Shown here: piece by piece, positions 3 through 14,080 of the stretch
Layout: each line of letters begins with the position of its first letter
How positions within the stretch are numbered: position 1 is the stretch's first letter
DNA from: a virus
Strand: one strand, 5' to 3'
DNA: 43,010 bases
IMG/VR virus record: IMGVR_UViG_3300015263_000027
Span: 1-43,010 of that record
Notes under the pieces: generated by a model
Told to the model about the DNA's origin: nothing
The model's input: the letters and a program-made list of their open reading frames with translations, nothing else
The model's database searches: none
Program-made: the position numbers and the translations under genes

Positions 3-1220
3 CATAATCGTTGGGCAACCATTGGTGAAGTCAACGAAGAAAACGCTCACCCATTCGTATCTGGCCCTATCATCGGTGCTCATAATGGTACTCTGCCTTA
101 TGATGAGCGTCGTAAACTTAATGATTGGGACAAGTATGGAACTGATAGTGAAGCTCTCTATCACAACATTGAAACGCGTGGAGTTAAGGAGACAATCAAT
201 TCCATTCGTGGAGCTTGGGCACTCACTTGGTATAATTCTGAGGAAGGCAGTTTCAACATTCTTCGTAACCCAGAACGTCCCCTTTATTACGCATGGAAGA
301 AGAGTGGAAAGGCTCTTTACTATGCATCGGAACCCGAGTTTATCTACCTTGCCACTGACAAGTATGATATTGAACTAAAGGAGGATGCTGCTCCTGTCCC
401 TGTTAACACCCATTTCAAGTTTACCATTGGCAAAGCTTATGACTTTGGTATTCAATGTGGTGTATCCGAGAAAATCGAACAACGGAGGTTTGTTAGTCCA
501 GTCATCTACTCAAGTACATACAAACCAGCTTCCGAAAGTGCCAACGTTTTCAAAGCAGGAACTAACACTAGCACAGAAAATAAAACAAATTCTAAACCCG
601 CAAAAGAAGGCGACTACGTAGAATTTGTAGTTGGCAACACCTACACGGATAATGCGAATAAGGATTTTATCTCTGCTTACACAGTGAATGATTCTGAACA
701 AATTCGTATCTACCCATCTCGTAATGATATGTCCACTTTGGATATTCTCAAAACTGAGGATGCTCTAACCTTCTCCTCTAAGGTGAGGAAGATTAAGACG
801 TTCAGAAATGGTGCAGGTCAAAGCCACTATCTACTCATTGACGTAAGTAAGATTATGGTTCAGCAGTATAAGAACAATAAAGTTCCACTGCCAGAAGTTG
901 ATGACACCATGAAGGAGTTGTTTGATCGAGAGGAGCAAATACTAAAGGAACATGATGGTTGGGATAGGTTCGTCCAATCCCTAGACACAGAAGAAATCTG
1001 GAATGATGAAGCTCTTAGCGAACTCTATCCAGTTGGGACGGCCCCTCATTTCGTGAATGAGGCTACATTCCTAGAACGTACACGACATGGATGTGCTTGG
1101 TGCTTAGCCTCACCCATGCCAGAAGAAGCTTTCCAATGCCACTGGATCACTGAGACAGAATTTGTCTGCCCTGATTGCATGGAAAACGATGAAGTAAAAG
1201 AAATTTTGAACGCTGCTTAA
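3..1220 (+). CDS. Class II glutamine amidotransferase (5' partial)
   Basis: The frame is open from the left edge and 405 residues are visible; the start and the N-terminal nucleophilic Cys lie outside the window. The first visible residues, HNRWATIGEVNEENAHPF, match the conserved RWATHG...NAHPH segment of Ntn-type glutamine amidotransferases such as the GlmS glutaminase domain. They are followed by GAHNGTL and GTDSEAL, which are also typical. In this family the domain hydrolyses glutamine and hands ammonia to a partner. The remaining ~250 residues carry no sugar isomerase or synthetase domain I recognise. They include a CAWC...CPDC pair near the C terminus that probably binds zinc. Ten bases downstream begins an amidoligase gene, so the natural reading is ammonia supply or amide chemistry for that pathway. 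Family assignment is firm; the substrate is unknown. Confidence 0.82.
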   Translation, partial: HNRWATIGEVNEENAHPFVSGPIIGAHNGTLPYDERRKLNDWDKYGTDSEALYHNIETRGVKETINSIRGAWALTWYNSEEGSFNILRNPERPLYYAWKKSGKALYYASEPEFIYLATDKYDIELKEDAAPVPVNTHFKFTIGKAYDFGIQCGVSEKIEQRRFVSPVIYSSTYKPASESANVFKAGTNTSTENKTNSKPAKEGDYVEFVVGNTYTDNANKDFISAYTVNDSEQIRIYPSRNDMSTLDILKTEDALTFSSKVRKIKTFRNGAGQSHYLLIDVSKIMVQQYKNNKVPLPEVDDTMKELFDREEQILKEHDGWDRFVQSLDTEEIWNDEALSELYPVGTAPHFVNEATFLERTRHGCAWCLASPMPEEAFQCHWITETEFVCPDCMENDEVKEILNAA

Positions 1221-1230
1221 GGAGCTTATT

Positions 1231-2289
1231 ATGGAACTTACTATTGGTTGTGACCCAGAACTGTTTATCAAGGACCGCAAGACTGGCAAGCTTATCTCTG
1301 CTCATGGTCTTTTCCCCGGTGACAAGAAGAACCCTCACAAGGTTGAATGTGGTGCCGTACAGGTAGATGGTATGGCTGCTGAATATAATATTGATCCTGT
1401 AAATAATGCAGGTGAGTTTGTCTTGAATAACCTCATCGTTCTTCGTGAACTCCGTGACCTTATTCGTGAACGCAATCCTGATTTGGATTTTGAATTTGTG
1501 TTCAATCCGGTTGCCGATTTTGGCAAGGAGTATATTGATGCTCAACCTGATGAAGCTAAGATTCTTGGTTGTGAACCAGACTACAATGCTTGGGAAGATG
1601 GCAAGGAAAACCCAACCCCCGATATGGAAATGCCTTTCCGCACTGCATCAGGACACATTCACCTTGGTTGGGGTAAGGATTTTGATATCTCCGACGAGGA
1701 ACATATCGAAGCTTGCTGTATGATGTCTAAGCAGTTGGATAGTTATATTGGAATGTGGTGCATGTCCTTCGAAGGTAAGGATGGTAAGAAGCGTCGTGAA
1801 CTTTATGGTAAGGCTGGTGCCTTCCGTCCTAAGAGTTATGGTGTTGAATATCGTACAATGTCTAATGTATGGCTTTCCAAAATCTATTACATGAGCTATG
1901 TTTATGCACTTGCCAAGGATGGGTTTGATTCTCTAATTGGCGGATATCGGATGTATGAATCTGATGGAGGACGTGCCCGTAAGAAGATTGATGATCATGA
2001 TGCTCAATGGTATAATGATTATTACGAGCCGGTTTCAACCAATCTCCGTTATTCTAATAAGTTCATGAAGGAAGATGTCACTGTTGATAATCTTGATGAG
2101 CTCATCAAGGAAACCAGAAATTATTATGGCATCTATCCAGATGTGGAACTGATTCCAGCCCCCGTCAATGATCCTGATGAAGCTCCTCAAGCGGAATGGG
2201 TTGTTTTCGATGATGTTGATGATCTCGATGAAGATGAGTGGGACATCCTTCTTGATCTTTATGAAGGTGCTATGGATGATGTTGGTTGA
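1231..2289 (+). CDS. phiEco32-type COOH-NH2 ligase (amidoligase)
   Basis: A 352-residue protein starting at an ATG preceded by AAGGAGC. It opens with TIGCDPELFI, continues with SAHGLFPGDKKNPH and GAVQVDGMAAEYNIDP, and then shows SGHIHLGWG and VEYRTMSN. This G.D.E / GH.H / EyR order is that of the phiEco32-like COOH-NH2 ligase type 2 family (PF14395), which has a glutamine-synthetase-like fold. The acidic residues would bind metal-ATP, and the His and Arg would take part in phosphate and carboxylate binding. Family members are predicted to join a carboxylate to an amine using ATP. The product is not known for any phage. The C terminus is very acidic (VFDDVDDLDEDEWD). It sits between a glutamine amidotransferase and an unknown gene, with a second amidoligase further on, which supports a joint pathway. 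Confidence 0.85.
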   Translation: MELTIGCDPELFIKDRKTGKLISAHGLFPGDKKNPHKVECGAVQVDGMAAEYNIDPVNNAGEFVLNNLIVLRELRDLIRERNPDLDFEFVFNPVADFGKEYIDAQPDEAKILGCEPDYNAWEDGKENPTPDMEMPFRTASGHIHLGWGKDFDISDEEHIEACCMMSKQLDSYIGMWCMSFEGKDGKKRRELYGKAGAFRPKSYGVEYRTMSNVWLSKIYYMSYVYALAKDGFDSLIGGYRMYESDGGRARKKIDDHDAQWYNDYYEPVSTNLRYSNKFMKEDVTVDNLDELIKETRNYYGIYPDVELIPAPVNDPDEAPQAEWVVFDDVDDLDEDEWDILLDLYEGAMDDVG

Positions 2290-2297
2290 GGTGAACC

Positions 2298-2867
2298 ATG
2301 TATGATAATGATGATTTGGCCTATGCACAAAATCGTTTGGTGGGTACACTTATTCGTTATAAGGACGAAGTGGTATCTGTACGAGATGTGATGTATGGAA
2401 AGAATAAAGCCGATCCCCTACGTATTGTAGGGGTGAGGGTTCTTAAGGGAGATGCTATCAATAAACCCCTCCCTGAATTTGATCTCACACCAATCAAGCT
2501 TGGCTTTGTCAATTTTGATGGCGGTGTAGCATACATCTCTCGTAAGGCAATGCGTGAAGATTGGAGACAAGGCTTTCGACTCCATCAGATGGCAGTGCAT
2601 TATCAATCAGATGATTTGTTCATCGGGGATATCTCAGGTGAAAAGATTGCTAAAACAGTTGAGAATAAGTATCCAATCATTGAAGAAATCTTTGATGGTG
2701 TTGGTAACGTCACTCAAGCGTGGTGCAAGAGCTTTGCAACTAATCCAGCCGGAGAAATCCTCCATCGTGGTTTTGGCAAGGTAGGTAATTTTATTGGTAA
2801 AACAAAAGAATATCTGTTAGATGCGGATTTCTTTTGGGTGGAAGAACAGCTTAAGAAAGCGATTTAG
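2298..2867 (+). CDS. Unknown protein in the amidoligase cluster
   Basis: A 189-residue soluble protein with an ATG start behind GAGGTGA. I do not recognise a catalytic domain. It begins with an acidic stretch and then NRLVGTLIRYKDEVVSVRDV, which looks like a small beta-rich fold, and it has a basic C-terminal helix. There is no signal peptide or membrane segment. It lies between the two amidoligase genes with gaps of 8 bases upstream and 2 bases downstream, so it is almost certainly co-translated with them. It could be a carrier, scaffold or third enzyme of the same pathway. That role is inferred from position only. Confidence 0.7.
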   Translation: MYDNDDLAYAQNRLVGTLIRYKDEVVSVRDVMYGKNKADPLRIVGVRVLKGDAINKPLPEFDLTPIKLGFVNFDGGVAYISRKAMREDWRQGFRLHQMAVHYQSDDLFIGDISGEKIAKTVENKYPIIEEIFDGVGNVTQAWCKSFATNPAGEILHRGFGKVGNFIGKTKEYLLDADFFWVEEQLKKAI

Positions 2868-2869
2868 TT

Positions 2870-3709
2870 ATGGATATGTACAACCTCCTTAACCTCAAGT
2901 GTGGTCGTCAGAATGGTGATTATGGTGTTGAAATTGAAGTGGAAGGGGATTACCTCCCCCTCTTCAACAGAGATATTGCCAAGAGTTGGAAGAAGGAACG
3001 GGATGATTCCCTTCGTGGCAATGAGAACGCTGAATACGTAATGAAGAAGCCCCTAATCAAACAAGAGGCATGTGATGCCATCATGAACCTTGATAAGTTC
3101 TTGAAAGATGGTGGGGCTGTTGTTAACGAGAGTGTTAGGGCGGGTGTACACGTCCATAAGAATGTACAGAGCTACACATCAACTGAGCTGATGACATTCT
3201 CCATGGTCTACTATCTGCTTGAAGATTTCATTGTCCATTGGGCAGGTCCGGGTCGTGTTGGTAACCACTTCTGCCTTCGTGTAACTGACGCAGAAGATTT
3301 GGTTTACAAGATGATTACCACTTGTCAGAAGAAAGATTGGCGTTATGTAAACACGAATGATGTTCGTTATGCCAGCCTCAACTGGAATGCCCTGCATAAG
3401 TATGGCTCTGTTGAGTTTCGTGCTATGCGTTCCACTGCCAAGTTTGAAGATATTGCACGATGGGTGGAGATCATTGATCGTGTATCAGAAGGTGCAAAGA
3501 AGTTTAATAATCCCCGTGATGTTATCTCTTCCATCTCTGAATTTGAATACAAAGAACGCTTTATTGAATATGTCATGGGTGATATGGCTAATGAGCTTCT
3601 CCAGTTTAAGGATATTGATATTTGGGAAGCTGTTGAAACCATTCAGCCACTGGCTTTCATGATTGATTGGCAGAAATTTGCCAAGGCTAAGATTAACCCG
3701 TTTATGTGA
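2870..3709 (+). CDS. Amidoligase_2 family enzyme
   Basis: A 279-residue protein with YGVEIEVEGDYLP near the N terminus (about residue 18), RAGVHVHKNVQ around residue 85 and GSVEFRAMRST in the second half. The G.E.E / G.H.H / EFR series is the signature of the putative amidoligase family PF12224. These enzymes share the glutamine-synthetase-like COOH-NH2 ligase fold but differ from the type 2 family encoded 600 bases upstream. The same three-motif order in both genes is visible by eye. The predicted reaction is ATP-dependent amide or peptide bond formation, with substrate unknown. The start could be the ATG at 2870 or at 2876; neither has a strong ribosome binding site. Two different ligases plus a glutaminase domain suggest stepwise assembly of a small peptide-like tag or metabolite. 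Confidence 0.8.
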   Translation: MDMYNLLNLKCGRQNGDYGVEIEVEGDYLPLFNRDIAKSWKKERDDSLRGNENAEYVMKKPLIKQEACDAIMNLDKFLKDGGAVVNESVRAGVHVHKNVQSYTSTELMTFSMVYYLLEDFIVHWAGPGRVGNHFCLRVTDAEDLVYKMITTCQKKDWRYVNTNDVRYASLNWNALHKYGSVEFRAMRSTAKFEDIARWVEIIDRVSEGAKKFNNPRDVISSISEFEYKERFIEYVMGDMANELLQFKDIDIWEAVETIQPLAFMIDWQKFAKAKINPFM

Positions 3710-3716
3710 GGATGAT

Positions 3717-4076
3717 ATGAGTATTGAATTGCTTTTAGGAAAGACCCTTGTTTCTGTAATTGGTGGTAAGGGTGATGATGAAATTATTTTTACTACTGAT
3801 AGTGGTGAAAAGTATCTCATGTACCACCAGCAAGATTGCTGTGAAAGTGTTTGGGTAGAAGATGTTGAAGGCGACTTGCAAGGTCTTGTTGGTAATCCAA
3901 TTCTTGTAGCAGAAGAGGTGGTTAGTTACGAAGGGGAACAATTGGATAAGTGGGACGACAGTTACACTTGGACATTCTACAAGTTGGCAACTATCAAGGG
4001 CCATGTAGATATCCGTTGGTATGGAACCAGTAATGGTTACTATTCTGAATCTGTAGATTTTGTAAAGGTGAATTAA
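3717..4076 (+). CDS. DUF7448-like small protein
   Basis: A 119-residue protein. I take the ATG at 3717, a few bases after the previous stop and GTGAGG, rather than the longer frame that would overlap the amidoligase. The central part reads YLMYHQQDCCESVWVEDVEG followed by LVGNPILVAEE. This recurs in small phage and bacterial proteins grouped as DUF7448, whose function is unknown. The HxxDCCE cluster could bind metal. It has no signal peptide or membrane segment. It is the fifth gene of a tightly packed run, so it may serve the amidoligase pathway, but that is only positional. Confidence 0.7.
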   Translation: MSIELLLGKTLVSVIGGKGDDEIIFTTDSGEKYLMYHQQDCCESVWVEDVEGDLQGLVGNPILVAEEVVSYEGEQLDKWDDSYTWTFYKLATIKGHVDIRWYGTSNGYYSESVDFVKVN

Positions 4077-4260: not shown

Positions 4261-4455
4261 ATGGCTAAGAAAAAACAAATTGTCAAAAGTATTGGTGACT
4301 ACACCACCACTGGTCAAGAACTTATCAGGCAGATCAATTTCTTTTGTGAAGAAAATAATTTGACACCAAAGGATATCACTGTTGAGGCCCATATAGAATA
4401 TGGATATTATGAGGGGGATGTTTGCCCTGAACTTAGGTTGGAGGCTTGGACGTGA
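4261..4455 (+). CDS. Hypothetical small protein
   Basis: A 64-residue protein starting at the ATG at 4261, immediately after the previous stop; a TTG 12 bases earlier would overlap the preceding gene without benefit. It has a lysine-rich N terminus (MAKKKQIVK), then a predicted helix and an acidic strand ending ELRLEAWT. Its stop overlaps the GTG start of the RNA ligase (GTGA), which points to translational coupling. Function unknown. Confidence 0.6.
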   Translation: MAKKKQIVKSIGDYTTTGQELIRQINFFCEENNLTPKDITVEAHIEYGYYEGDVCPELRLEAWT

Positions 4456-5375
4456 CTTTCCTTCGATATCCTAGTCTAGCTCGTCTAGGCTCCCAAGAGG
4501 TGGAAGAAATTCTTCTTGGAAATGTGACAGCATTCTATAAGATTGATGGAACTAATTCATGTATCTGGTTTAAGGATAGGATTAGGTTTGGTTCTCGTAA
4601 TCGTGAGCTTGACATTCATAATGATAATGCCGGCTTCATGAATGTTATGATGGCTGATGCTAGAGTTCAACATTTCTTTTCTGGCGATAATTGTAAATAT
4701 CGTCTATACGGGGAGTGGTTAGTTCCACACAGTCTTAAAACGTACAGAGAGGATGCGTGGAGGCGTTTCTATGTATTCGATGTATATGACACCGAGAAAG
4801 AGCAATTCCTCTCCTATGAGGCTTACAAGCCGATTCTGGACCTATATGGTTTTGACTATATCCCTCCTCTTGCTGATATGGTTAACCCCACTACAGATCA
4901 ATGCATCAACCTTCTGGACAAGACAGGACAGTTCCTAGTCGAATATGGTAAGGGCAATGGTGAGGGTATTGTCTTCAAGAATTATGATTTCGTTAACAAG
5001 TACGGACGCACCACTTGGGCTAAGCTCATCTCGAATGAGTTCAAGGAAGTACATCACAAGGAGATGGGGGCACCCCTAGTCCTTGGTTCTAAGCTTGTTG
5101 AAGATGAGATTGTTGACAAGTATGTCACTGAGGCTTTTGTTCTTAAGGAACAAGCTAAGATTATAGCTGCTAGTGAATACTTTGATATTCTTTACGATGA
5201 AAATTCTGTTGCTTGGGATAATAAGAAAATCCCCGAACTGCTTGGTCGAGTGTGGTATGAGCTTCTTAATGAGGAAGCTGCCAACTTTGTGAAGGAGCAT
5301 AAACTCCCCACTATCAACTTCAAAACGCTACAGTCTCTTACCTATCGTAAGGTGAAGAAAGTGATTGGGCTTTAA
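4452..5375 (+). CDS. ATP-dependent RNA ligase (Rnl2-like)
   Basis: I choose the GTG at 4452, which sits 7 bases after GGAGG; the TTG at 4446 is only 1 base from it. This gives 307 residues. Nucleotidyltransferase motif I is FYKIDGTN with the adenylated lysine at about residue 30. Then come FGSRNREL, YRLYGEWLVP (motif III region), GEGIVFKN (motif IV) and TWAKLISNEF (motif V). That set fits the T4 Rnl2 / RNA-editing-ligase family, which seals nicks in RNA. In phages such ligases commonly repair tRNAs cut by host anticodon nucleases. No polynucleotide kinase/phosphatase partner is seen in the window. The enzyme is probably cytoplasmic. Family assignment is confident; the RNA target is inferred. 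Confidence 0.85.
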   Translation: MTFLRYPSLARLGSQEVEEILLGNVTAFYKIDGTNSCIWFKDRIRFGSRNRELDIHNDNAGFMNVMMADARVQHFFSGDNCKYRLYGEWLVPHSLKTYREDAWRRFYVFDVYDTEKEQFLSYEAYKPILDLYGFDYIPPLADMVNPTTDQCINLLDKTGQFLVEYGKGNGEGIVFKNYDFVNKYGRTTWAKLISNEFKEVHHKEMGAPLVLGSKLVEDEIVDKYVTEAFVLKEQAKIIAASEYFDILYDENSVAWDNKKIPELLGRVWYELLNEEAANFVKEHKLPTINFKTLQSLTYRKVKKVIGL

Positions 5376-5391
5376 TATAAGGTGCAAAAAC

Positions 5392-6144
5392 ATGAAATTT
5401 CTTGCAAAAATTCTGGCAAGCATTGCATTTGCAGTTATGCCATTTTCAGCTTTGGCTGATAACTTTGTAGATCAGGCTGTAGAGCCTGTAGTACAACTCA
5501 ATCGTAACTGCTCAGGTGTAGTGGTTAAGGTTGGTGATCCTAACATCACTTACATCGTAACAGCACAGCATTGTGTTGATGGTGAAGAGAGTGGCTTTGT
5601 CACTATCGATGTGAAGGATAGGGCTAAGGTGGTTAAAACCACACAGTATGTGTTCGATATTGTCCGTCAATCCAAGAATGATGACCTAGCCGTCATTAAG
5701 CTTCGTGAAGAAGCTCTTCGATTGGCATCTGCTAATATTGCCACAGAAGACCCTGTAGAGGGTGAGAAGGTGTGGACGATAGGATACCCCTTGGGACTTA
5801 CTCGAACGATCACAGACGGCTATTATGGCGGTTACAGCGACCTTCCAAAGAATATGCGGGGTATGCCTAACACGCCATTCGGGAATGGTAATCCAAAATA
5901 TCGAGCAACTCCACCAATATTTGGTGGTAACTCCGGTGGTGGGTTGTTCAAGAAGGTGGGGGACGATTTCCAACTTGTAGGTATCTCTGATGCAGGGTTT
6001 CCATCCTTCTTTGTAGCAGGATTCTATAATCCACAGGAAGAAATCAACAAGATTGTCAAGGAAGCTATGAAGCATGAAATTGACGAAAAGAATGATGAAG
6101 AGGATTTCTATGATGGATGGGGACCAAGACAAATCCGAGAATGA
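5392..6144 (+). CDS. Exported trypsin-like serine protease
   Basis: A 250-residue protein from the ATG at 5392. The first 22 residues form a clear signal peptide: MKFLAKI, then a hydrophobic run ending PFSALA before DNF. The mature part has the chymotrypsin-fold triad: His60 in TAQHC, Asp98 in NDDLAV and Ser181 in GGNSGGG. GYPLGLTRTI before the serine is like the S1-family proteases of the DegP/HtrA type, but there is no PDZ domain. The product should act in the periplasm or outside, which is unusual for a phage early or middle gene. Possible roles are cleaving surface receptors or incoming phage proteins (superinfection control) or envelope remodelling. The C terminus is highly acidic and overlaps a small membrane-protein gene. 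Confidence 0.85.
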   Translation: MKFLAKILASIAFAVMPFSALADNFVDQAVEPVVQLNRNCSGVVVKVGDPNITYIVTAQHCVDGEESGFVTIDVKDRAKVVKTTQYVFDIVRQSKNDDLAVIKLREEALRLASANIATEDPVEGEKVWTIGYPLGLTRTITDGYYGGYSDLPKNMRGMPNTPFGNGNPKYRATPPIFGGNSGGGLFKKVGDDFQLVGISDAGFPSFFVAGFYNPQEEINKIVKEAMKHEIDEKNDEEDFYDGWGPRQIRE

Positions 6145-6235
6145 AAAAGATTATTTCATTCGTGGCCTTGTAATCTGTGCCGCACTACTTATATTTGGTA
6201 TTGCGGCATCTATAACACTAGAATATGTTATGTGA
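6110..6235 (+). CDS. Small single-TM protein overlapping the protease gene
   Basis: A 41-residue frame starting ATGATG at 6110, in a different frame from the protease it overlaps by 35 bases. AGAGGA lies 5 bases upstream, a good ribosome binding site. The N half is charged (MMDGDQDKSENEKD). The C half, from about residue 18, is one hydrophobic span of roughly 20 residues ending LEYVM. This is a plausible one-pass membrane peptide, probably coupled to the protease. It might anchor, inhibit or help export the protease, or be a separate membrane effector; the sequence does not decide. Confidence 0.55.
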   Translation: MMDGDQDKSENEKDYFIRGLVICAALLIFGIAASITLEYVM

Positions 6236-6240
6236 GGAAT

Positions 6241-7230
6241 ATGAGTGAATGTATTGAAAAACTCCCACATCGGTGTGGGACAAGAAATGGCCTACAAGTA
6301 TTTGCTAGAGAAGATGGTGGAGTGGATGGTTTTTGTTTCTCCTGTGGTACCTTCGTTCGTCATCCCTATGGAAAACCTCGTCAGGCAGATGAGATTGAAC
6401 GACCACCGCCAAAGACACCAGAGCAAATTCAAGCAGAGATCGCTGAGGTCGATGGGTATCAGACAGTTGACATTCCATCAAAACGCCTTCGAGCGAAGCA
6501 CTTGGAAGCATTCGGGATCAAGGTTGGCTTGTCAGAGAACGATGGCATCACTCCAGAAACCATCTACTATCCCTACAGGCGTAATGGAGAGCTAGTAGGT
6601 TACAAAGTGAAAATTCTCCCAAAGAATGGGAAGGACAAGATTGTCTTTTCTTTGGGGGATATTAAGAATAATGAAGATGGTGACATTGAACCTTTCGGAT
6701 GGCAAGAGGCTATCGCCCATGCTGGTAAACGCCTCCTAATTACAGAAGGTGAAGATGATGCTGTAGCTGCACTATCTATTCTAACTCGTCATACCAAAGA
6801 TGAGTTTAAAGAACATATGCCCGCTGTCATCTCCATTCCACACGGAGCTGGTAATGCGCATGAAACACTAGCCAAGTGGAAGAAGAAGATTCTTGCACGA
6901 TGGAAAGAAGTGGTTCTCGTGTTTGATATGGATAGAGCTGGTGAAGAAGCTATTCAGAAATGTATGCTTGTTCTCCCAGAAGCTATGTCTGTTCAACTCC
7001 CAAGCAAAGACCTTAATCAGTGCATCATTGATGGACGATCTAAGGCAGCATTCAATGTCCTACAGTTTAAGGCAGAGAAGCCAAAGAACTCTCGTCTCGT
7101 GTTTGGTGATGATCTTCATGAAGATGCCAAAGAACCAGCAAAGTATGGTGAACTGACTTGGCCTTGGGAACATTTGAATAAGATCACTCGTGGTATTCGA
7201 CTTGGTGAAACCATTTATATTGGAGCGGGT
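6241..7230 (+). CDS. Primase-helicase, exon 1 (primase half)
   Basis: A 330-residue first exon starting at ATG 6241 behind GTGAGGA. The N terminus has a Cys/His zinc-binding segment ending FCFSCG. A TOPRIM primase core follows, with ITEGEDDAVAAL and VLVFDMDRAGEEA. The exon then enters the RecA-type helicase domain and stops at IYIGAG, the start of the Walker A loop. The next codon in unspliced RNA is TAA, the first three bases of a group I intron. Joined to 8006-8755 it gives 579 residues, close to T7 gp4 (566). It would unwind DNA at the replication fork and lay primers for the phage polymerase encoded downstream. Without splicing this exon alone would give a helicase-less primase, so splicing is needed for the full enzyme. 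Confidence 0.88.
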
Positions 7231-8005
7231 TAATTGGCTCGCTATAAATCTATTGAATTGCTGGAACACCCTAACGTAAAGACGAGGGCAATCAGCAGCT
7301 AAATTCTTATACAAAGATATAAATCTTTTGTCACAAAACACCTAAAATCTTGGTATATAAGTGTGTTAAGATATATTTAGGAGTTAAAATGTTTGTAGTG
7401 ATTAAAGATTTTCCTAATTACTCCATTTCAAATGATGGGGAAATTATGAATAACAAAACCGGAAGGGTCCTAGCCGGAGGCTATGATCAAGACGGGTATA
7501 GGCAAGTAATTCTTTGCGACAAAGGTCGTAGGAGGAATTGTAAGATACATCGAGAGGTGGCCCTTACATTTATACCAAACCCAAACAATCACCCAATTAT
7601 TAATCATAAAGATGGTGTGAAATCTAATAACAAGATTGATAATCTAGAATGGTGTACTATCTCGCACAACACAAAACATGCATATAAATTAGGGTTCCTT
7701 AACCAAAAGGGGGAGAGGAATAATGCTTGTGCAAACTCTGATGCTGTTGTTAAAATGGTGGTAGAGGGTTATGATGGCGGGAGTATAGCTAAGTACGCTA
7801 AGAAGTTGGGTATGAATTACGGTTCGGTTTACGCCTATATTAAGGGTATAAGAAGAAGTTCAACGACTATCCCTTCGGGGAGTACAGCCAAGCGGCTGGA
7901 AGCGGTAGACAGCGAAAGCTGAAGATATAGTCTAGTCTGCATGGAGACATGCAGCAGTTCATAAGAGAACGGGCAGGTAGGTAGCGTAACCTGTTGAATA
8001 TGACG
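7231..8005 (+). ncRNA. Group I intron (IA2, td-like) in the helicase gene
   Basis: A 775-base intron with readable core pairings. P1: exon AGCGGGT (7224-7230) pairs with GCTCGCT (7237-7243), ending in the required U.G at the 5' splice site. P10: 3' exon GTTA (8006-8009) pairs with TAAT (7231-7234). P7: GACTAT (7865-7870) pairs with ATAGTC (7927-7932). A hairpin TCCC-TTC-GGGGA follows P7. A P9-type hairpin CTGCATG-GAGA-CATGCAG lies at 7937-7954. AAGACGAGGGCAATCAGCAG near 7278 looks like the P3/P4 region. The last base is G (8005). The sequence around P7-P9 closely resembles the T4 td intron as I remember it. Splicing restores GAG|VKMGKS in frame. An HNH endonuclease gene sits inside. Confidence 0.9.
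7389..7922 (+). CDS. Intron-encoded HNH homing endonuclease
   Basis: A 177-residue protein from ATG 7389, behind TTAGGAG. The N terminus has a NUMOD4-type motif (FPNYSISNDGEIMNNKTGR). Next come the HNH core, with HREVALTFIPNP, INHKDGVKSNNKIDNLEWCT and a final HNTKHAYKLG, and a helix-turn-helix-like NUMOD segment (GGSIAKYAKKLGMNYGSV). Such enzymes nick or cut intron-less alleles so that the intron is copied in. The last ~20 codons run through P7 and its neighbouring hairpin, so RNA core and protein share sequence. Codons are more A/T-rich (AAA, AGA) than in the host helicase gene, consistent with separate origin. Confidence 0.9.
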   Translation: MFVVIKDFPNYSISNDGEIMNNKTGRVLAGGYDQDGYRQVILCDKGRRRNCKIHREVALTFIPNPNNHPIINHKDGVKSNNKIDNLEWCTISHNTKHAYKLGFLNQKGERNNACANSDAVVKMVVEGYDGGSIAKYAKKLGMNYGSVYAYIKGIRRSSTTIPSGSTAKRLEAVDSES

Positions 8006-8755
8006 GTTAAGATGGGTAAGAGCGAGCTACTCAATGAAATTGCTGCCCACTTCATCCGAGTACATGGTGTCAAGGTGTTTATGGCTAAGCCAGAAGAAAG
8101 CAACAAGAAGACCTACAAGCTCATCTTGAATAAGATAGCAGGAAAGCGGTTCCATGATCCAGATGTCGAGTTTGACGAAGAGGCGTATGATGAAGCTGGT
8201 AAGCTTATTAAAGGGAAGCTTGCTATGGTTAATCTCTACCAGCATCTTGGTTGGGATAGCCTTCGTGACGATATCATCGCTGCTGCTAATTGGGGCGCTA
8301 AAGCTGTGTTCATTGATCCTATTACCAACCTAACCAATGGAGTGAATGCCGGTGATGCGAATACAGAACTTCAAAAGATCGCTCAAGATTTATCTGCTAT
8401 GGCACTTGATCTCAATATTGTTGTATTTATCTTCTGTCATCTTAAAGCTCCAGAGGGAAATATCGCCAAAGAGAAACGAGATAAGTATTATCGCGAAGGA
8501 AAATATATTGGACTCGGTTCTTGCCCCCACGAGTTGGGTGGTGATGTTGTTAGTGCTCAATTCGCTGGATCTAGAGCGATGATGCGTTCATGTAATATGA
8601 TGCTAGGACTTGAAGGTAATAAGGATGAGGAACTCCCACAGAATGTCAAGAACATTCGTGATTTGGTTCTTTTGGAAGACCGAGAGTTCGGTGAAACTGG
8701 ACGGTTCCCGTTGTATTGGAATCTGAACACTACAAGATTTACGGAGTTGGATTAA
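8006..8755 (+). CDS. Primase-helicase, exon 2 (helicase half)
   Basis: The second exon, 249 residues, in frame with exon 1 after intron removal. It begins VKMGKSELLNEIA, the second half of the Walker A motif. It contains KAVFIDPITNL (Walker B) and IVVFIFCHLKAPEG (the DnaB/gp4 motif with catalytic or sensor His), followed by a DVVSAQFAGSRAM segment. These are the RecA-type hexameric helicase motifs of the T7 gp4 family. A start at about 7994 inside the intron would give an in-frame protein, but it lacks the first part of the nucleotide loop. The stop overlaps the next start (TAATG). Confidence 0.87.
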   Translation, partial: VKMGKSELLNEIAAHFIRVHGVKVFMAKPEESNKKTYKLILNKIAGKRFHDPDVEFDEEAYDEAGKLIKGKLAMVNLYQHLGWDSLRDDIIAAANWGAKAVFIDPITNLTNGVNAGDANTELQKIAQDLSAMALDLNIVVFIFCHLKAPEGNIAKEKRDKYYREGKYIGLGSCPHELGGDVVSAQFAGSRAMMRSCNMMLGLEGNKDEELPQNVKNIRDLVLLEDREFGETGRFPLYWNLNTTRFTELD

Positions 8756-8943
8756 TGAAAGTTTACATTCTTGTTGGTATCTCTAAATATAGAAAATATG
8801 AGGGGTATGAATGTAATTTTGATAACAGAGTTAATCATAGTGTGCACACATCAAAAAATTCAGCTATGTCAGAATATAAACTAGCTTGTACATTTGGTGA
8901 ATGGGGTTATGACGATTATGAAATTGAGGAGCATAGTCTTTAA
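8755..8943 (+). CDS. Hypothetical small protein
   Basis: A 62-residue protein starting at the ATG that overlaps the helicase stop and ending at an overlap with the sigma factor start. It is tyrosine-rich (ISKYRKYEGYE, EWGYDDYEIEEH) and probably a small alpha/beta fold. No known motif. Overlaps on both sides support translation. Confidence 0.6.
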   Translation: MKVYILVGISKYRKYEGYECNFDNRVNHSVHTSKNSAMSEYKLACTFGEWGYDDYEIEEHSL

Positions 8944-9446
8944 TGAACAGAGATACTGTAGTAGAAGAACACTTCAAGAAATACTACAAGATTGTAGTTA
9001 AACGAGCAATTCAGCGTGTTCCAGATAAGTCAGAAGCATTAGCTGAGGAAGTGGTGCAGGAAGCATATGCTAAAGCCCTTAAGTTTTGGAAGGCTTATAA
9101 TCCTGAGCGTAGTGAGTTTGTCACTTGGTACAATCGTATTCTAAATGGTTGTATCGCTGACTGTATTCGTAACGAGGGTAATGGACCTCCATCCCTAGAT
9201 AATGAAGATGATAACCTAGAGCCTTATATTCTGGATGATAACGCATGGATTCCCCACGCTATAGTTGTCCAGATTAAGGAAGGGATCAAACAGCAGAAGC
9301 CAGATGTATCAGAAGTGCTTAATATGTTCTTCATCCTTGGTATGAAGACTATTGACATTGCTGAATGTACAAATCTTGGACACGCTAACGTAAGAAAGAT
9401 GATCCAACGGTTCAGAATTGATTGGAACGACGAAAATATTTTCTAA
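8943..9446 (+). CDS. ECF-like RNA polymerase sigma factor
   Basis: A 167-residue protein. Residues ~30-75 match sigma-70 region 2: ALAEEVVQEAYAKALKFW, then FVTWYNRILNGCIADCIRNE, the core-binding and -10 melting helices of ECF sigma factors. The C-terminal part, from about residue 115, holds a degenerate region 4 helix-turn-helix (LGMKTIDIAECTNLGHANVR). Length is within the ECF range. phiEco32 encodes an ECF-family factor (gp36) that directs host RNA polymerase to phage promoters. No single-subunit phage RNA polymerase is seen here, so this is the best candidate for middle or late gene switching, probably including the convergent minus-strand late genes. Confidence 0.8.
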   Translation: MNRDTVVEEHFKKYYKIVVKRAIQRVPDKSEALAEEVVQEAYAKALKFWKAYNPERSEFVTWYNRILNGCIADCIRNEGNGPPSLDNEDDNLEPYILDDNAWIPHAIVVQIKEGIKQQKPDVSEVLNMFFILGMKTIDIAECTNLGHANVRKMIQRFRIDWNDENIF

Positions 9447-9517
9447 TATTTGTCACATTTTGGTAATTATTTTAGTAGTTATAATTGCCCTATCAGTTTT
9501 AATGGCAATATAAGGGG

Positions 9518-11386
9518 ATGAAACTAGATAATGACATGAATCAATTTATATTTGACATTGAAGGCGATAGCCTAAACCCAACCAAGATTTGGTGCTTAGC
9601 TGCTAATACAAAACTTGGGGTGAAGTCAACCACCTCTTATGATAAGATGAAGGAGAAGTTGGAAAATGCTGACATAGTAATTGGACATAATATCTATAGG
9701 TTTGACGTTCCTGTTCTTGAACGCATCCTTGGTATTAAGATTAGGGCTAAGATTGTAGATACTCTTGCGTTGTCTTGGTATCTCTATCCTCAACGCATTA
9801 GACATGGCTTGGAAGAATGGGGTGAAGACCTCGGAGTTAAGAAGCCTGAAATTATTCGTTGGGATGATCCTGAGCTTATTGACGAATATCGTCATCGTTG
9901 TGAAGAAGACGTCAAGATTAATACCAAACTTTGGAATAAGATGTGGAAATATCTTATGCGGCTCTACGGAACCGAGGAAGAGGTTTGGAGGTTTATTGAC
10001 TACCTCATGTTCAAAATGGATTGTGCCAGAGAACAAGAGCGTAGTAGATGGAAGCTTGACATTGATCTTTGCAAGAAGTCACTAGATGAGTTGACGGCTA
10101 AGAAGGAAGATGCTGTAGCCGATTTGATTGCAGCTATGCCTAAAGTGGCTAAGATGGAGAAGAAGACACGTCCAGCTAAGCCATTCAAACAGGATGGTAC
10201 ATACTCAGTGGTAGGCGCAAAATGGTTCAAACTATTGCGTGATCACAACTTGCCAGCAGACTATGATGGTGTTGTGGAAGTTGTGAGAGAGTATGTAGAT
10301 GGTAATCCCAACTCTCATGTACAGATCAAAGATTGGTTGTATAGTAATGGTTGGAAACCGGAGACATTCAAATATGATAAAGACGATGAAGGAAACCTCA
10401 GAAAAATTCCTCAGGTCAACTTGGAGCATGGTGGTGGCATATGCCCTTCTGTCTCTAAGCTTTATGACCGTTGCCCTGAACTCGCTCGTATTGAAGGACT
10501 GGGAGTTATCTCCCATCGCATTTCTATTCTTAATGGGTTCATGGAGTCTGTGGACGATGAAGGTTATGTTCAGGCGCAAATAGCAGGACTGACCAACACA
10601 CTACGGTTCAAGCATAAAACCGTGGTTAATCTTCCCGGTGTTGACAAACCATATGGTGAAATCATTCGTGGCGTTCTTATTGCTCCAGAAGGTTACGAAC
10701 TGTGTGGCTCTGATAAGTCATCCCTTGAAGATAGGCTTAAGCAACACTATATCTTTCCGTATGACCCTGACTACGTGAGAGAAATGCAACATGAGGATTA
10801 TGATCCTCATCTATCACTAGCTCTTCTAGCTGGTGAAGTGACACAGAAACAAGTGGATGACTATATCTCTGGTAAGGATAAATCTATCAAGAAGATTAGG
10901 CATACATTCAAACAGGGAAACTACGCATGTCAATATGGTGCTGGACCTCCAAGACTTGCCCTCACTGCTGATATTTCAGTGAAGGAGGCAGAGAAGGTTC
11001 ATAAGACATATTGGGAAAAGAATTGGGCAATTAAGGAAGTTGCCAAGCATCAGGAAATAGTTACTATCAGCGGACAGATGTGGTTGAAGAATCCGATTAA
11101 TGGTTTTTTTTACTCCTTGCGTTCTGAGAAAGATATTTTCTCCACACTTGTTCAGGGTAGTGCTTCCTATGTATTTGATAGGTGGGTGCAAATATTCCGT
11201 CAGAAACGGTCACAGCTCACCGCACAGTTCCATGACGAGGTGGTCCTGTGTCTCCGTAAGGGTAATCGAGAGAAGGCCATCCAGCTCCTCCGTGGGGCGA
11301 TTAAGGAACTAAACGAAGAATTGCAACTCAATCGTGAATTGGATATTGATATTCAGTTTGGAGATAGGTACAGTGACATTCATTAA
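9518..11386 (+). CDS. Family A DNA polymerase with 3'-5' exonuclease
   Basis: A 622-residue replicative polymerase of T7 gp5 type. The exonuclease half has FDIEGDSL (ExoI), IGHNIYRFDVPVL (ExoII) and HRCEEDVKINTKLW (ExoIII), so proofreading residues are present. The polymerase half has motif A GSDKSSLEDR, motif B KIRHTFKQGNYACQYGAG and motif C AQFHDEVVL with the catalytic His-Asp-Glu. T7 gp5 is 704 residues; this one is shorter, with no evident large thioredoxin-binding insertion. The start is uncertain: ATG 9518 touches AAGGGG directly, whereas ATG 9536 gives MNQFIFDIEG, which aligns better with the usual N terminus. It is preceded by a 71-base gap, one of the few in this strand. Confidence 0.92.
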   Translation: MKLDNDMNQFIFDIEGDSLNPTKIWCLAANTKLGVKSTTSYDKMKEKLENADIVIGHNIYRFDVPVLERILGIKIRAKIVDTLALSWYLYPQRIRHGLEEWGEDLGVKKPEIIRWDDPELIDEYRHRCEEDVKINTKLWNKMWKYLMRLYGTEEEVWRFIDYLMFKMDCAREQERSRWKLDIDLCKKSLDELTAKKEDAVADLIAAMPKVAKMEKKTRPAKPFKQDGTYSVVGAKWFKLLRDHNLPADYDGVVEVVREYVDGNPNSHVQIKDWLYSNGWKPETFKYDKDDEGNLRKIPQVNLEHGGGICPSVSKLYDRCPELARIEGLGVISHRISILNGFMESVDDEGYVQAQIAGLTNTLRFKHKTVVNLPGVDKPYGEIIRGVLIAPEGYELCGSDKSSLEDRLKQHYIFPYDPDYVREMQHEDYDPHLSLALLAGEVTQKQVDDYISGKDKSIKKIRHTFKQGNYACQYGAGPPRLALTADISVKEAEKVHKTYWEKNWAIKEVAKHQEIVTISGQMWLKNPINGFFYSLRSEKDIFSTLVQGSASYVFDRWVQIFRQKRSQLTAQFHDEVVLCLRKGNREKAIQLLRGAIKELNEELQLNRELDIDIQFGDRYSDIH

Positions 11387-11531
11387 TTATCAGAATATAA
11401 ATGAGGTGCCTATTTATAGGTTTCCAGTGGTTAATTTTGACCACCCTCAGATTAAAATGATCGTTGAAGCTTATACCAAACGTGGTATGGGTATCGGAAT
11501 TAATTACGGCAAGAATTTGGAGAAAAACTAA
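11373..11531 (+). CDS. Hypothetical small protein
   Basis: A 52-residue frame from GTG 11373, with GGAGA 8 bases upstream inside the polymerase gene and a 14-base overlap with it. It contains PQIKMIVEAYTKRGMGIGIN and no recognised domain. Its stop overlaps the ATG of the DNA-binding protein gene (TAATG), so it may couple polymerase and binding-protein translation. Confidence 0.55.
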   Translation: MTFINYQNINEVPIYRFPVVNFDHPQIKMIVEAYTKRGMGIGINYGKNLEKN

Positions 11532-12286
11532 TGGGTTTGAACGCTAAGAAGAAAGAATTTAATGGTGGTGGTAAGAAGGCTGATCCGATTGATGCAGGTG
11601 CTTATCCCGCTCGACTGGTACAGATTATCGACCTCGGTGTACAGGAACAGCAGCCTTTCAAGGGCGAGCCTAAGCCTCCTGCGCAGGAACTGATGACCAC
11701 ATATGAACTCGTAGATGAGTTTATGAAGGATGAAGATGGTGAAGATATTGAAGATAAGCCACGTTGGCAGTCTGAGACATTTGTTCTCCACAACCTTGCC
11801 TCAGATATGGCAAAATCTACTAAACGTTACACCGCTCTTGATCCTAATCTTGAGCATGACGGTGATTGGACTGAGCTTGTTGGCTCCCCTGTAATGGTCA
11901 CTATCACTAAGGATCAGGGTAAGGGTAAGAACGCTGATAAGGTGTATAACAACATCTCTGGCACTTCCTCTATGCGAGCTAAGGAAGCTGCAAAGCTGCC
12001 TGAACTTAAGAACCCTGCTAAGATTTTCGATCAGTCGGATATTTCCACTGTTGACATTTTCTTTACACTTCCTCAGTGGATTCAGGACAAGATCAAGTCT
12101 GGTCTTGAGTTTGAAGGCTCTGAAATGGAATACGCTATCAACAACTATAAGCAGAAGGACTCTGACGAAGATGCCAAGCAGAAAGGCAAAGGCCGGGCTA
12201 AGAAGCAGGAGAAGGCTGCTGAACCCGATGATAGTGACGAAGGCGATGTCGGAAACGAAAAAGCAGACAACGGAGAAGACTGGTAA
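11531..12286 (+). CDS. Single-stranded DNA-binding protein (gp2.5-like role)
   Basis: A 251-residue protein. The body (residues ~20-190) looks like a beta-barrel with YPARLVQIIDLG, TTYELVDEFM and VMVTITKD strands. The last ~45 residues are a low-complexity tail, first lysine-rich (AKQKGKGRAKKQEK) and then acidic, ending KADNGEDW. A terminal acidic tail capped by an aromatic residue is the hallmark of T7 gp2.5 and functionally similar phage SSBs, where it contacts polymerase and helicase. It lies just after the polymerase and before the 5' exonuclease, as expected. Assignment rests on architecture and context more than on residue matches. Confidence 0.72.
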   Translation: MGLNAKKKEFNGGGKKADPIDAGAYPARLVQIIDLGVQEQQPFKGEPKPPAQELMTTYELVDEFMKDEDGEDIEDKPRWQSETFVLHNLASDMAKSTKRYTALDPNLEHDGDWTELVGSPVMVTITKDQGKGKNADKVYNNISGTSSMRAKEAAKLPELKNPAKIFDQSDISTVDIFFTLPQWIQDKIKSGLEFEGSEMEYAINNYKQKDSDEDAKQKGKGRAKKQEKAAEPDDSDEGDVGNEKADNGEDW

Positions 12287-12588
12287 TGAATGAGAAAGAC
12301 TTAATCAAGGGCCTAGATTTTGTAACATGCGTTAATGGTAACTTTGAAGAATATGGTGTATCGGAGGGTCAGCTTGCTTTTGTAGCTGGCCACCGTTCCC
12401 TTCCTATAAATGAGGATGATCCCTATCTTCAACGTATCCATTTTCTAATTCATCCTCTCAATGAAGATGAAACAATTAACTTCACTATTCTCCTAGTAGT
12501 TGATGGTCGGTCACTTGCCAAGGTGAGTGAAGAAGAACAGGAACGACTTACGGAGAAGCTTCGTGAAGACACTGACAGCATTAATTGA
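12286..12588 (+). CDS. Hypothetical protein
   Basis: A 100-residue acidic protein with ATG at the preceding TAATGA overlap. It contains VSEGQLAFVAGHRSLPINED and a C-terminal charged helix (EEEQERLTEKLRED). No family recognised. Its 3' end overlaps the exonuclease gene by 26 bases and carries that gene's ribosome binding site (CGGAGAAG). Confidence 0.6.
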   Translation: MNEKDLIKGLDFVTCVNGNFEEYGVSEGQLAFVAGHRSLPINEDDPYLQRIHFLIHPLNEDETINFTILLVVDGRSLAKVSEEEQERLTEKLREDTDSIN

Positions 12589-13471
12589 TGCAGATGTACT
12601 TCGCTATGAGATTGGATTTTGTGGCGAGTACAAAGAACTAAATGAGGAAACTGGTGAAGAGGAGTTTAAGGTTAGGGAATTTGATTTCGTAGCCGAACTC
12701 CTTGACGGCAGAGTGAAAGGAATTATCGCAGATGTTGCAGACTATTTCGACATTGATCAGTCAGATATTAAACCAGTTCTCTACCTCACAGGCTCAGAAA
12801 CAAGTACAAAAATCATCAATAGATCAAAAAGATTTCTTGATGAGCCTCTACTTCTTTTGGCTCCGCCAATACGAGAATCCATTGCAGTCACTAAGCCTTA
12901 TAAGGGCACACGAGCGGGAACAAAACCTTTCCATTATGAAAACCTCACGGCGTACATTATTGGAACATATGAATTCCGCGTGTCGAATGGGCTTGAAGCC
13001 GACGATCTTATCTGCATGGATCAATTCTCAGCTTTGGGAGATAATGATACTATCATTTGCACTAGAGACAAAGATTTACGTATGTGTCCCGGCTGGCATT
13101 ACGGTTGGGAATGTGGCAAACAGCCTTCGTTCGGACCCACGCTCGTGGACAATAGGGGACAAATCACCCTCACCCCGAAGGGCATCAAAGGCACAGGACT
13201 TAAATTCTTCTTTTCACAAATGCTTACAGGAGATACAGTTGACAACATCCCCGGATGCGCCAAGATTGGACCAGCAAAAGCCTTCGCCATACTTGAAGGA
13301 TGCAACACACGACGAGATCATGAACGAGCTGTTATCGAGGCATATAAGCAAGCATACGGTGACAAGTACAAAGACATGCTTGAGGAGCAATCCAAGCTTT
13401 TGTGGATGATTAGAGAACTTAACGAGGACGGAAGTCCTGTACATTATGAATGGAAGTTTGATGCTGACTGA
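12563..13471 (+). CDS. 5'-3' exonuclease (FEN/T7 gp6-like)
   Basis: A 302-residue protein from GTG 12563, placed 7 bases after GGAGA; this start puts LTALIDADVLRYE at the N terminus, where the family has its first metal-binding Asp. Further motifs are TKPYKGTRAGTKP (arch/lysine region), NGLEADDLIC, ICTRDKDL and GDTVDNIPGCAKIGPAKA, the last being the helix-hairpin-helix that grips duplex DNA. These are the active-site acids of the FEN/5' nuclease superfamily. It would remove RNA primers and help degrade host DNA for nucleotides. Position beside polymerase and SSB fits. Confidence 0.87.
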   Translation: MKTLTALIDADVLRYEIGFCGEYKELNEETGEEEFKVREFDFVAELLDGRVKGIIADVADYFDIDQSDIKPVLYLTGSETSTKIINRSKRFLDEPLLLLAPPIRESIAVTKPYKGTRAGTKPFHYENLTAYIIGTYEFRVSNGLEADDLICMDQFSALGDNDTIICTRDKDLRMCPGWHYGWECGKQPSFGPTLVDNRGQITLTPKGIKGTGLKFFFSQMLTGDTVDNIPGCAKIGPAKAFAILEGCNTRRDHERAVIEAYKQAYGDKYKDMLEEQSKLLWMIRELNEDGSPVHYEWKFDAD

Positions 13472-13652
13472 TACTGAGGTTAATGAAGTTTGGGAAATTG
13501 CCCAAAAAGATGCACAATCAGATTTCTTTTCTGCTAGGCCAACTTTTGATAAAAAGTTTATCGGTTATAACCCATATAACTATGGGACTGAAAAATATGA
13601 AGAGTATGAATGTGCTTATGAACACTACATCATGGATTATTTGGGGTATTAA
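13461..13652 (+). CDS. Hypothetical small protein
   Basis: A 63-residue acidic protein. ATG 13461 is taken because GGAAG precedes it closely; an in-frame ATG at 13446 is possible. It ends in a tyrosine-rich stretch (IGYNPYNYGTEKYEEYECAY). No known motif. The stop overlaps the next start (TAATGG). Confidence 0.55.
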   Translation: MLTDTEVNEVWEIAQKDAQSDFFSARPTFDKKFIGYNPYNYGTEKYEEYECAYEHYIMDYLGY

Positions 13653-14080
13653 TGGCAGGTAGAATTGGTGGCCCTAAGACACGCAACTCTGGTCGTTGGA
13701 CTGAGGCACAATTCACTTCTTTCATCAAAGGAAATCTTAGGCGTATCACTTCCAAGTGGGGACCTATTCAAGATGTTCTAAAGGAAGCTCGTGTTAGACG
13801 AGGCTTTTATATCTGTAATGATTGTAAGGAAGAAGTGCCAGCCTCCACCAAAGATGAGAATGGTAAGCGTGTTAAGAATGCGATAGTGGATCATATTGAT
13901 CCTATCATCGATCCTGATGTGGGTTGGGTGAGTTGGGACAACACTATCGAACGGATGTTCTGTGAGAAAGAGGGGCTTCAAGTCCTTTGCTATGAATGTC
14001 ACAAGAAAAAGACTGACGATGAAAAGGCTCGGGCTAAGGCTCGTCGAGCCGCTGATAAGGAAATTTTGAATGACGAATGA
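13652..14080 (+). CDS. HNH endonuclease
   Basis: A 142-residue protein with a basic N terminus (MAGRIGGPKTRNSGRW) and a C-terminal HNH zinc-finger nuclease. The pieces are CNDCKEEV, VDHIDPIIDPDVGW with the catalytic His, and LQVLCYECHKKKT with the second Cys pair and final His. The two CxxC pairs hold the structural zinc. It sits between replication genes in a position where T7-type phages often carry endonucleases for recombination intermediates or host DNA degradation. It is not flanked by an evident intron, so it is either a free-standing homing nuclease or a DNA-metabolism enzyme. Confidence 0.8.
   Translation: MAGRIGGPKTRNSGRWTEAQFTSFIKGNLRRITSKWGPIQDVLKEARVRRGFYICNDCKEEVPASTKDENGKRVKNAIVDHIDPIIDPDVGWVSWDNTIERMFCEKEGLQVLCYECHKKKTDDEKARAKARRAADKEILNDE

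Follow-up and report, generated by a model that had tools for sequence, protein, structure and literature searches.

What do phages make with a glutamine-splitting enzyme and two different amide-forming ligases encoded side by side? The question is raised by the left end of the IMG/VR virus record IMGVR_UViG_3300015263_000027, which was analysed in its entirety (43,010 bases, hereafter the window). An earlier note on this DNA had described a class II glutamine amidotransferase (GAT) and two amidoligases of the glutamine synthetase (GS) fold, accompanied by a 189-residue protein and a DUF7448-like protein, as a candidate peptide or amide-tag pathway in which a small peptide-like molecule is made stepwise. 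The module is already known from PA11, phiRIO-1, phiEco32 and other phages, where it goes by the name 'peptidoglycan modification cassette' (PMC5498523, PMC6256558), and the window adds a truncated member to it. In our analysis the window probably holds the 3' half of a conserved cassette with which phages such as PA11 would form amide or peptide bonds non-ribosomally. This reading is based on the enzyme families and their conserved residues, on fixed gene order and co-occurrence in 98 loci, on correlated divergence of the proteins beyond that of the phage primase, on a complete relative (locus L007) and on the cassettes annotated in PA11, CW02, CVT22, phiM6, LUZ24-like and EP335 phages.

The GAT and both ligases lie in one tight run, as the earlier note had read them, and all three gave profile matches above the curated cut-offs. 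The GAT matched GATase_6 (3.6e-15, 56.6 bits, cut-off 27), phrog_18128 (4.5e-51) and phrog_4736 (3.8e-46), and the nearest profile relatives of its domain are the glutaminase domains of GlmS and PurF. The phiEco32-type ligase scored 2.8e-11 with its Pfam family PF14395 (43.6 bits, curated cut-off 25) and 3e-68 with phrog_3815. It keeps the motifs GxDPE, GHxH and EYR, and residues G6, D8-P9-E10, G141-H142-H144, R199, K201, E206 and R208 are conserved in all 98 loci; its acidic C-terminal tail is common to the related loci L006 and L007. The second ligase scored 2.6e-10 with PF12224 (41.1 bits, curated cut-off 22) and 3.8e-63 with phrog_7469, keeps the motifs G(V/I)ExE, HxH and EFR, and has E21, E23, H94, H96, R129, E182 and R184 conserved in 96 loci. 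Comparison of the PF14395 and PF12224 profiles revealed no relation except a short HxH-like motif, and no convincing relative of solved structure was found by sequence profile for either ligase.

The gene neighbourhood was surveyed in the window and 97 relatives, mostly 80 IMG/VR loci best matching a PF14395 alignment, together with annotated phage loci (a few phages were represented twice). All open frames were searched with profiles built step by step; since the loci were picked by PF14395 similarity, what the survey portrays is that part of the family to which the window belongs. The genes travel together: the GAT, the 189-residue protein and the PF12224 ligase were each present in 96 of the 98 loci, an ATP-grasp ligase in 92, a Peptidase_C26 protein in 81 and an unnamed protein of about 300 residues in 77, several of the absences being due to contig ends. 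A gamma-glutamyl cyclotransferase was found in 26 loci, DUF7448 in three, the window's trypsin-like protease in two and its RNA ligase in one. The usual order is the ~300-residue protein, Peptidase_C26, GAT, PF14395 ligase, 189-residue protein, PF12224 ligase and ATP-grasp ligase; in a minority, including L007, the ATP-grasp gene lies upstream. The true core consists of seven genes, two of them unnamed, with the cyclotransferase as an option. A scattered neighbourhood, which the earlier note had named as grounds for abandoning its pathway, was not what the survey returned. The three amide-chemistry enzymes on its list of parts stand; the list was incomplete in that the published module also has the ATP-grasp ligase, Peptidase_C26 and sometimes the cyclotransferase, and DUF7448 had no place on it.

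The PF14395 ligase occurs in 317 phage records and in at least 583 IMG/VR stretches, and the listed hosts are Gram-negative bacteria. A search through 84,980 species genomes of prokaryotes turned up just 14 loci, every one from metagenome-assembled genomes. Nine of them carry the same cassette and are probably phage contigs; the other five have PF14395 without the two-ligase core. On these results the cassette is essentially confined to phages. The neighbours looked at around cellular PF14395 homologues were DNA-metabolism genes or a subtilase and provided no hint of a pathway. Single-protein scans of viral contigs with the PF12224 ligase or the 189-residue protein as the query returned no matches, and the alignments of these two proteins varied too much to yield search patterns.

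Judged from its sequence, the window represents 43 kb of a PA11-like podovirus genome that is incomplete, its left end lying inside the GAT gene. It encodes a podovirus gene set (family A DNA polymerase, primase-helicase, ThyX, ribonucleotide reductase, major head protein, head-tail connector and terminase), and its large terminase shares 71% identity with the one from Pseudomonas phage PA11, a member of the Zobellviridae. The left record end cuts off the first ~80 GAT residues including the catalytic Cys, as is evident from the motif HNRWATIG, which opens the window's protein and sits about 80 residues into the intact L007 homologue (start MCGLVGVIG). The missing N-terminus was sought at the right end of the record and is not there. 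The remaining glutamine-site residues, R3, H16, N28-G29 and D48, are intact (97-99% conserved across 96 homologues), and the C-terminus carries a zinc-ribbon-like CxxC...CxxC arrangement (C364, C367, C389 and C392). Loss of the catalytic Cys, the other outcome that the earlier note had set against its pathway, is not seen in the relatives: they have the residue, which an AUU or AUC start conceals in some annotations; in the window's own GAT the part that would carry it lies beyond the record end.

In the complete relative L007 the ATP-grasp ligase, the ~300-residue protein and Peptidase_C26 are encoded upstream of a GAT with an intact MCGLVG start, Peptidase_C26 directly so. By analogy, the cut-off part of the window's cassette probably comprised these three genes and the GAT catalytic Cys. 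No ATP-grasp, Peptidase_C26 or gamma-glutamyl cyclotransferase gene was found on the 43,010-base record, which is truncated on the side of L007's ATP-grasp gene. The ~300-residue protein, encoded upstream of Peptidase_C26 (L007, 6488-7408, and 76 other loci), matched no Pfam family, has a near-invariant Cys (C66 of L007), R149 and E153, and may be an unrecognised enzyme. Its model, with a predicted local distance difference test (pLDDT) score of 85, gave no reliable fold match (best E 0.054, best Z 3.3). Weak cytidine-deaminase-like rows were not used, and profile matches to designed PPR proteins were ignored as they cover 18 residues of repeats.

The second unnamed core protein is the 189-residue one. 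Its gene sits between the ligase genes and overlaps each of them by a median of 4 bases (longest open frames). The earlier note had left it as an unknown; no Pfam family was matched in the profile search, and yet it is no orphan, for homologues occupy the same place in nearly all relatives and it is as constant as the two ligases across the survey. An AlphaFold2 model built from 74 homologues was obtained with high confidence (pLDDT 94.5, predicted TM-score 0.89) and has a small N-terminal SH3-like beta-barrel leading into a mixed alpha/beta region. None of the PDB chains matched it at E<=0.001. Ten models of a viral library did so, the named ones being phage proteins, including one from the cassette-carrying CW02. 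Fold assignment by VIA-align was rejected, as it gave unspecific SH3/Tudor-like barrels alone, mostly over residues 1-65 (Z <=5.9); the C-terminal part of the model was hardly covered and a new fold is therefore not claimed. The only residues shared by over 90% of the homologues are G69, R82, R86 and G92, with no Cys, Ser, His, Asp or Glu suggesting catalysis. Because of this lack of catalytic-type residues and the position between the ligases, the protein is proposed to be an adaptor or a substrate-presenting protein.

The pairwise divergence of the 189-residue protein tracks that of the PF12224 ligase (r 0.65), the GAT (0.62) and the ~300-residue protein (0.66), all values being partial correlations given the phage primase, in comparison to permutation maxima of 0.10-0.13. 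The link with the PF14395 ligase is weaker (0.26, permutation maximum 0.15), and the ATP-grasp ligase fits least (0.20-0.30 versus the other cassette proteins). The phiEco32-type equivalent of the protein is recognisable (hhalign probability 91%), and the LUZ24-type protein in the same place gave a marginal match (13.5%).

GS-fold and ATP-grasp ligases form amide bonds via acyl-phosphates, and Peptidase_C26 and cyclotransferase enzymes act on gamma-glutamyl bonds. From the observed presence, order and co-conservation of the genes and their intact conserved residues, we infer the following chemistry. The GAT would split glutamine and supply ammonia (or glutamate), as expected from its enzyme family. 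Both GS-fold ligases, together with the ATP-grasp ligase, would activate carboxylates with ATP, as acyl-phosphates, and join them stepwise to amines, while Peptidase_C26 and the cyclotransferase would trim or take off gamma-glutamyl groups. The 189-residue protein would act as a non-catalytic adaptor, holding both ligases together or presenting their substrate. Several points weigh against such a scheme. The accessible literature gives no substrate, product or phenotype, in agreement with the earlier note, which knew of no established phage product. The GS fold of both ligases is presumed, the ATP-grasp ligase and Peptidase_C26 are absent from the record and so predicted for the window's phage, and the adaptor role is deduced from missing catalytic-type residues and from position. 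The core of the earlier idea, stepwise synthesis of a peptide-like molecule, is right, and the earlier interpretation as a whole is partly supported.

Within this scheme the choice of target is a separate matter. Modification of the host envelope, in which unusual gamma-glutamyl linkages in peptidoglycan stem peptides would block superinfection or protect the cell until lysis, is a published prediction, repeated several times (PMC5498523, PMC6256558, PMC11945000, PMC10580990). Stem-peptide chemistry suits enzymes acting on gamma-glutamyl groups, and the Gram-negative hosts are in keeping with it; however, every citation traces to the same original predictions, no experiment was found in the searchable literature, and the core has neither a secretion signal nor a membrane enzyme. 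This target is possible, though less likely than not.

Synthesis of a free small molecule, such as a gamma-glutamyl amine, a signalling peptide or an inhibitor of a defence enzyme, we judge somewhat unlikely. The enzyme classes needed are present in the relatives: a GS-fold ligase with Peptidase_C26 is the combination of PuuA and PuuD (gamma-glutamylputrescine synthetase and gamma-Glu-GABA hydrolase), and an ATP-grasp ligase with a cyclotransferase resembles BtrJ and BtrG of butirosin synthesis, where a gamma-glutamyl group protects and is then removed. In both systems a ligase makes and a hydrolase or cyclotransferase removes gamma-glutamyl groups. The likeness is one of logic only, and no partner protein specific for an amine or a carrier was found.

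Less probable still is protein tagging, in which amino acids or a short peptide would be joined to a protein of the host or the phage, altering for example a host polymerase or a defence protein. RimK-type ligases do glutamylate proteins. The ATP-grasp members match weakly the R2K clade, for which phage protein modification has been proposed (PMC4431377), but the scores are slightly under the Pfam cut-off. No target protein is linked to the cassette, and the gamma-glutamyl trimming enzymes point instead to a small molecule. Hypermodification of phage DNA, with an amide or an amino acid added to its bases, is very improbable: amino-acid adducts occur in some phage DNAs and the cassette adjoins the genes for primase and DNA polymerase and, in the window, those for ThyX and ribonucleotide reductase as well, but no base hydroxymethylase or other base-activating enzyme was found among the window proteins scanned, and the place near the primase is simply that of the early module of these phages.

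The survey also concerned the codon preceding the catalytic Cys motif of the GAT, which was ATG in 54 loci, ATT in 15, ATC in 5, TTG in 9, GTG in 4 and CTG in 1, and unreadable in 8. ATT or ATC thus stands directly before the Cys in 20 of the 88 readable loci; some of the other rows are chance motif matches or contig-edge fragments (e.g. CTG in L004, TTG in L021). In 14 of the 20 cases there is no ATG, GTG or TTG from the upstream in-frame stop to the Cys; in 13, a Shine-Dalgarno match of at least 5 bases lies 6-9 bases away. As a control, a canonical start codon was available in 96/96 testable PF14395 and 92/92 testable PF12224 genes. A pattern scan with the codon left free and GGAG required upstream recovered genuine GATs with ATG (16), ATT (13) and ATC (2) and no others. 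The scan without GGAG, which shares loci with the former, gave among the matches listed 35 GATs (ATG 19, ATT 13, ATC 3), in comparison to one ATT or ATC codon in 66 unrelated matches.

Among cultured phages, ATC precedes the Cys in O4 and Klyazma and ATT in KpnP_VR7901, VPp1, EP335 and BUCT695, with hosts spanning Pseudomonas, Klebsiella, Vibrio, Aeromonas and E. coli; in each of these six the annotated GAT begins after the Cys. The corresponding codon is TTG in PA11 and ATG in the closely related PPAT. The late annotated starts first suggested that an intron splits the GAT gene, but no exon beginning with MCG was found and an AUU/AUC start explains the data better. Translation of the GAT from AUU or AUC appears to recur in different phage genera and to have been missed in the annotation of cultured phages. 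AUU starts have been reported for just two E. coli genes, infC and pcnB (PMC9410913), and are repressed by IF3 (PMC5472188). The likeness to these genes lies in apparent AUU initiation; in infC and pcnB, translation is limited by this codon or comes to depend on IF3 through it (PMC9410913, PMC5472188). The phage case differs in that the gene encodes an enzyme with its catalytic Cys codon right after the apparent start, and that AUU or AUC recurs at this place in several phage genera. The start codon probably serves, at a guess, to throttle the synthesis of the glutaminase.

PA11 and other Zobellviridae (phiRIO-1, CW02, CVT22) have the GAT, PF14395 ligase, 189-residue-type protein and PF12224 ligase in the window's order. 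In contrast to PA11, the window has DUF7448, RNA ligase and trypsin-like protease genes at the place of the ATP-grasp gene, which its nearest complete relative, L007, carries upstream. The phiEco32-type (Gordonclarkvirinae, Grimontviridae) and LUZ24-type (Bruynoghevirus) phages share the ligase families, GAT, ATP-grasp and cyclotransferase, with a protein of 176-190 residues between the ligases; they differ in that the GAT follows PF12224, the middle protein is highly divergent, and a profile search of two of their loci detected no Peptidase_C26. Seven peptide-bond open reading frames were counted in phiM6 (PMC6256558), a number that would fit the annotated enzymes without the 189- and ~300-residue proteins; naming of these two as core parts was not found in the literature.

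Features of the window and loci with ATT or ATC before the GAT catalytic Cys
Feature	Position or loci	Strand	Basis
Class II GAT, 3' part alone	3..1220	+	GATase_6, phrog_18128, phrog_4736; conserved glutamine-site residues and four Cys
Shine-Dalgarno-like AAGGAG of PF14395 gene	1219..1224	+	direct reading
COOH-NH2 ligase, phiEco32 type (PF14395), GS-fold amidoligase	1231..2289	+	PF14395, phrog_3815, conserved residues
189-residue unnamed core protein (phrog_11055)	2298..2867	+	phrog_11055 3.4e-23; homologues in 96/98 loci; model pLDDT 94.5
Amidoligase_2 (PF12224), second GS-fold amidoligase	2870..3709	+	PF12224, phrog_7469, conserved residues
DUF7448 protein, 119 residues from ATG 3717	3717..4076	+	PF24240 5.5e-31 (107.5 bits, cut-off 27)
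ATT/ATC before Cys, survey loci	L010, L012, L015, L023, L028, L045, L048, L049, L052, L055, L057, L058, L060, L072, L089, L148, L150, L154		
ATT/ATC before Cys, pattern-scan loci	L114, L115, L123, L128, L137, L145		

All five genes of the cassette region, from GAT to DUF7448, lie on the + strand with short gaps and Shine-Dalgarno-like sites, including the one tabulated and another at 2289-2294. For the DUF7448 gene the most likely start is ATG 3717, which has its own Shine-Dalgarno site, rather than TTG 3663. Its membership in the pathway, considered in the earlier note, was rejected: it occurs in three of the 98 loci and in 108 phage records, foremost of Bacillus and Pseudomonas phages. At one contig end of L006, two inverted, diverged copies of the 189-residue, PF12224 and DUF7448 genes were seen (7281-9614, -, and 9992-13800, +), with a short GAT-like fragment between them; here two related phages were probably joined into a chimera during assembly.

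An RNA ligase gene (PF09414, 9e-20) adjoins the cassette at 4446-5375 (+) and occurs in no other surveyed locus. It is followed at 5365-6144 (+) by a gene for a trypsin-like protease with a hydrophobic N-terminus, possibly a periplasmic protease of the early module; L007 has a counterpart at 12731-13486, and in L016 a serine protease is annotated upstream of the cassette. The cassette belongs to the early module, with the primase-helicase gene from 6232 and the polymerase gene at 9518-11386, a placement also found in PA11. The primase-helicase frame (6232-8755, +) is interrupted. Its first part, 6232-7233, aligns with phrog_239 as far as position 366 of 801, after which come an HNH-like frame at 7350-7922 and a helicase-like part at 7994-8755; L006 and L007 have a single frame here. 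The interruption looks like an intron or a homing endonuclease insertion. Near the other end, 41239-42225 (-) encodes a protein with the N-terminal domain of the major tropism determinant (Mtd_N, 1.7e-16).

Taken further, the cassette may tentatively be regarded as a fixed multi-protein machine for a peptide-like product, with two undescribed core proteins and a glutaminase throttled via its AUU/AUC start, which would tie glutamine use to IF3 discrimination as in infC and pcnB. A GAT cloned from the current annotation of several cultured phages lacks the catalytic Cys and is therefore expected to be dead in assays. The cassette, found in hundreds of phage records, is routinely annotated as peptidoglycan-modifying; the defined core, the near phage-only distribution and the recognition of the hidden AUU/AUC starts remove practical obstacles to its study.

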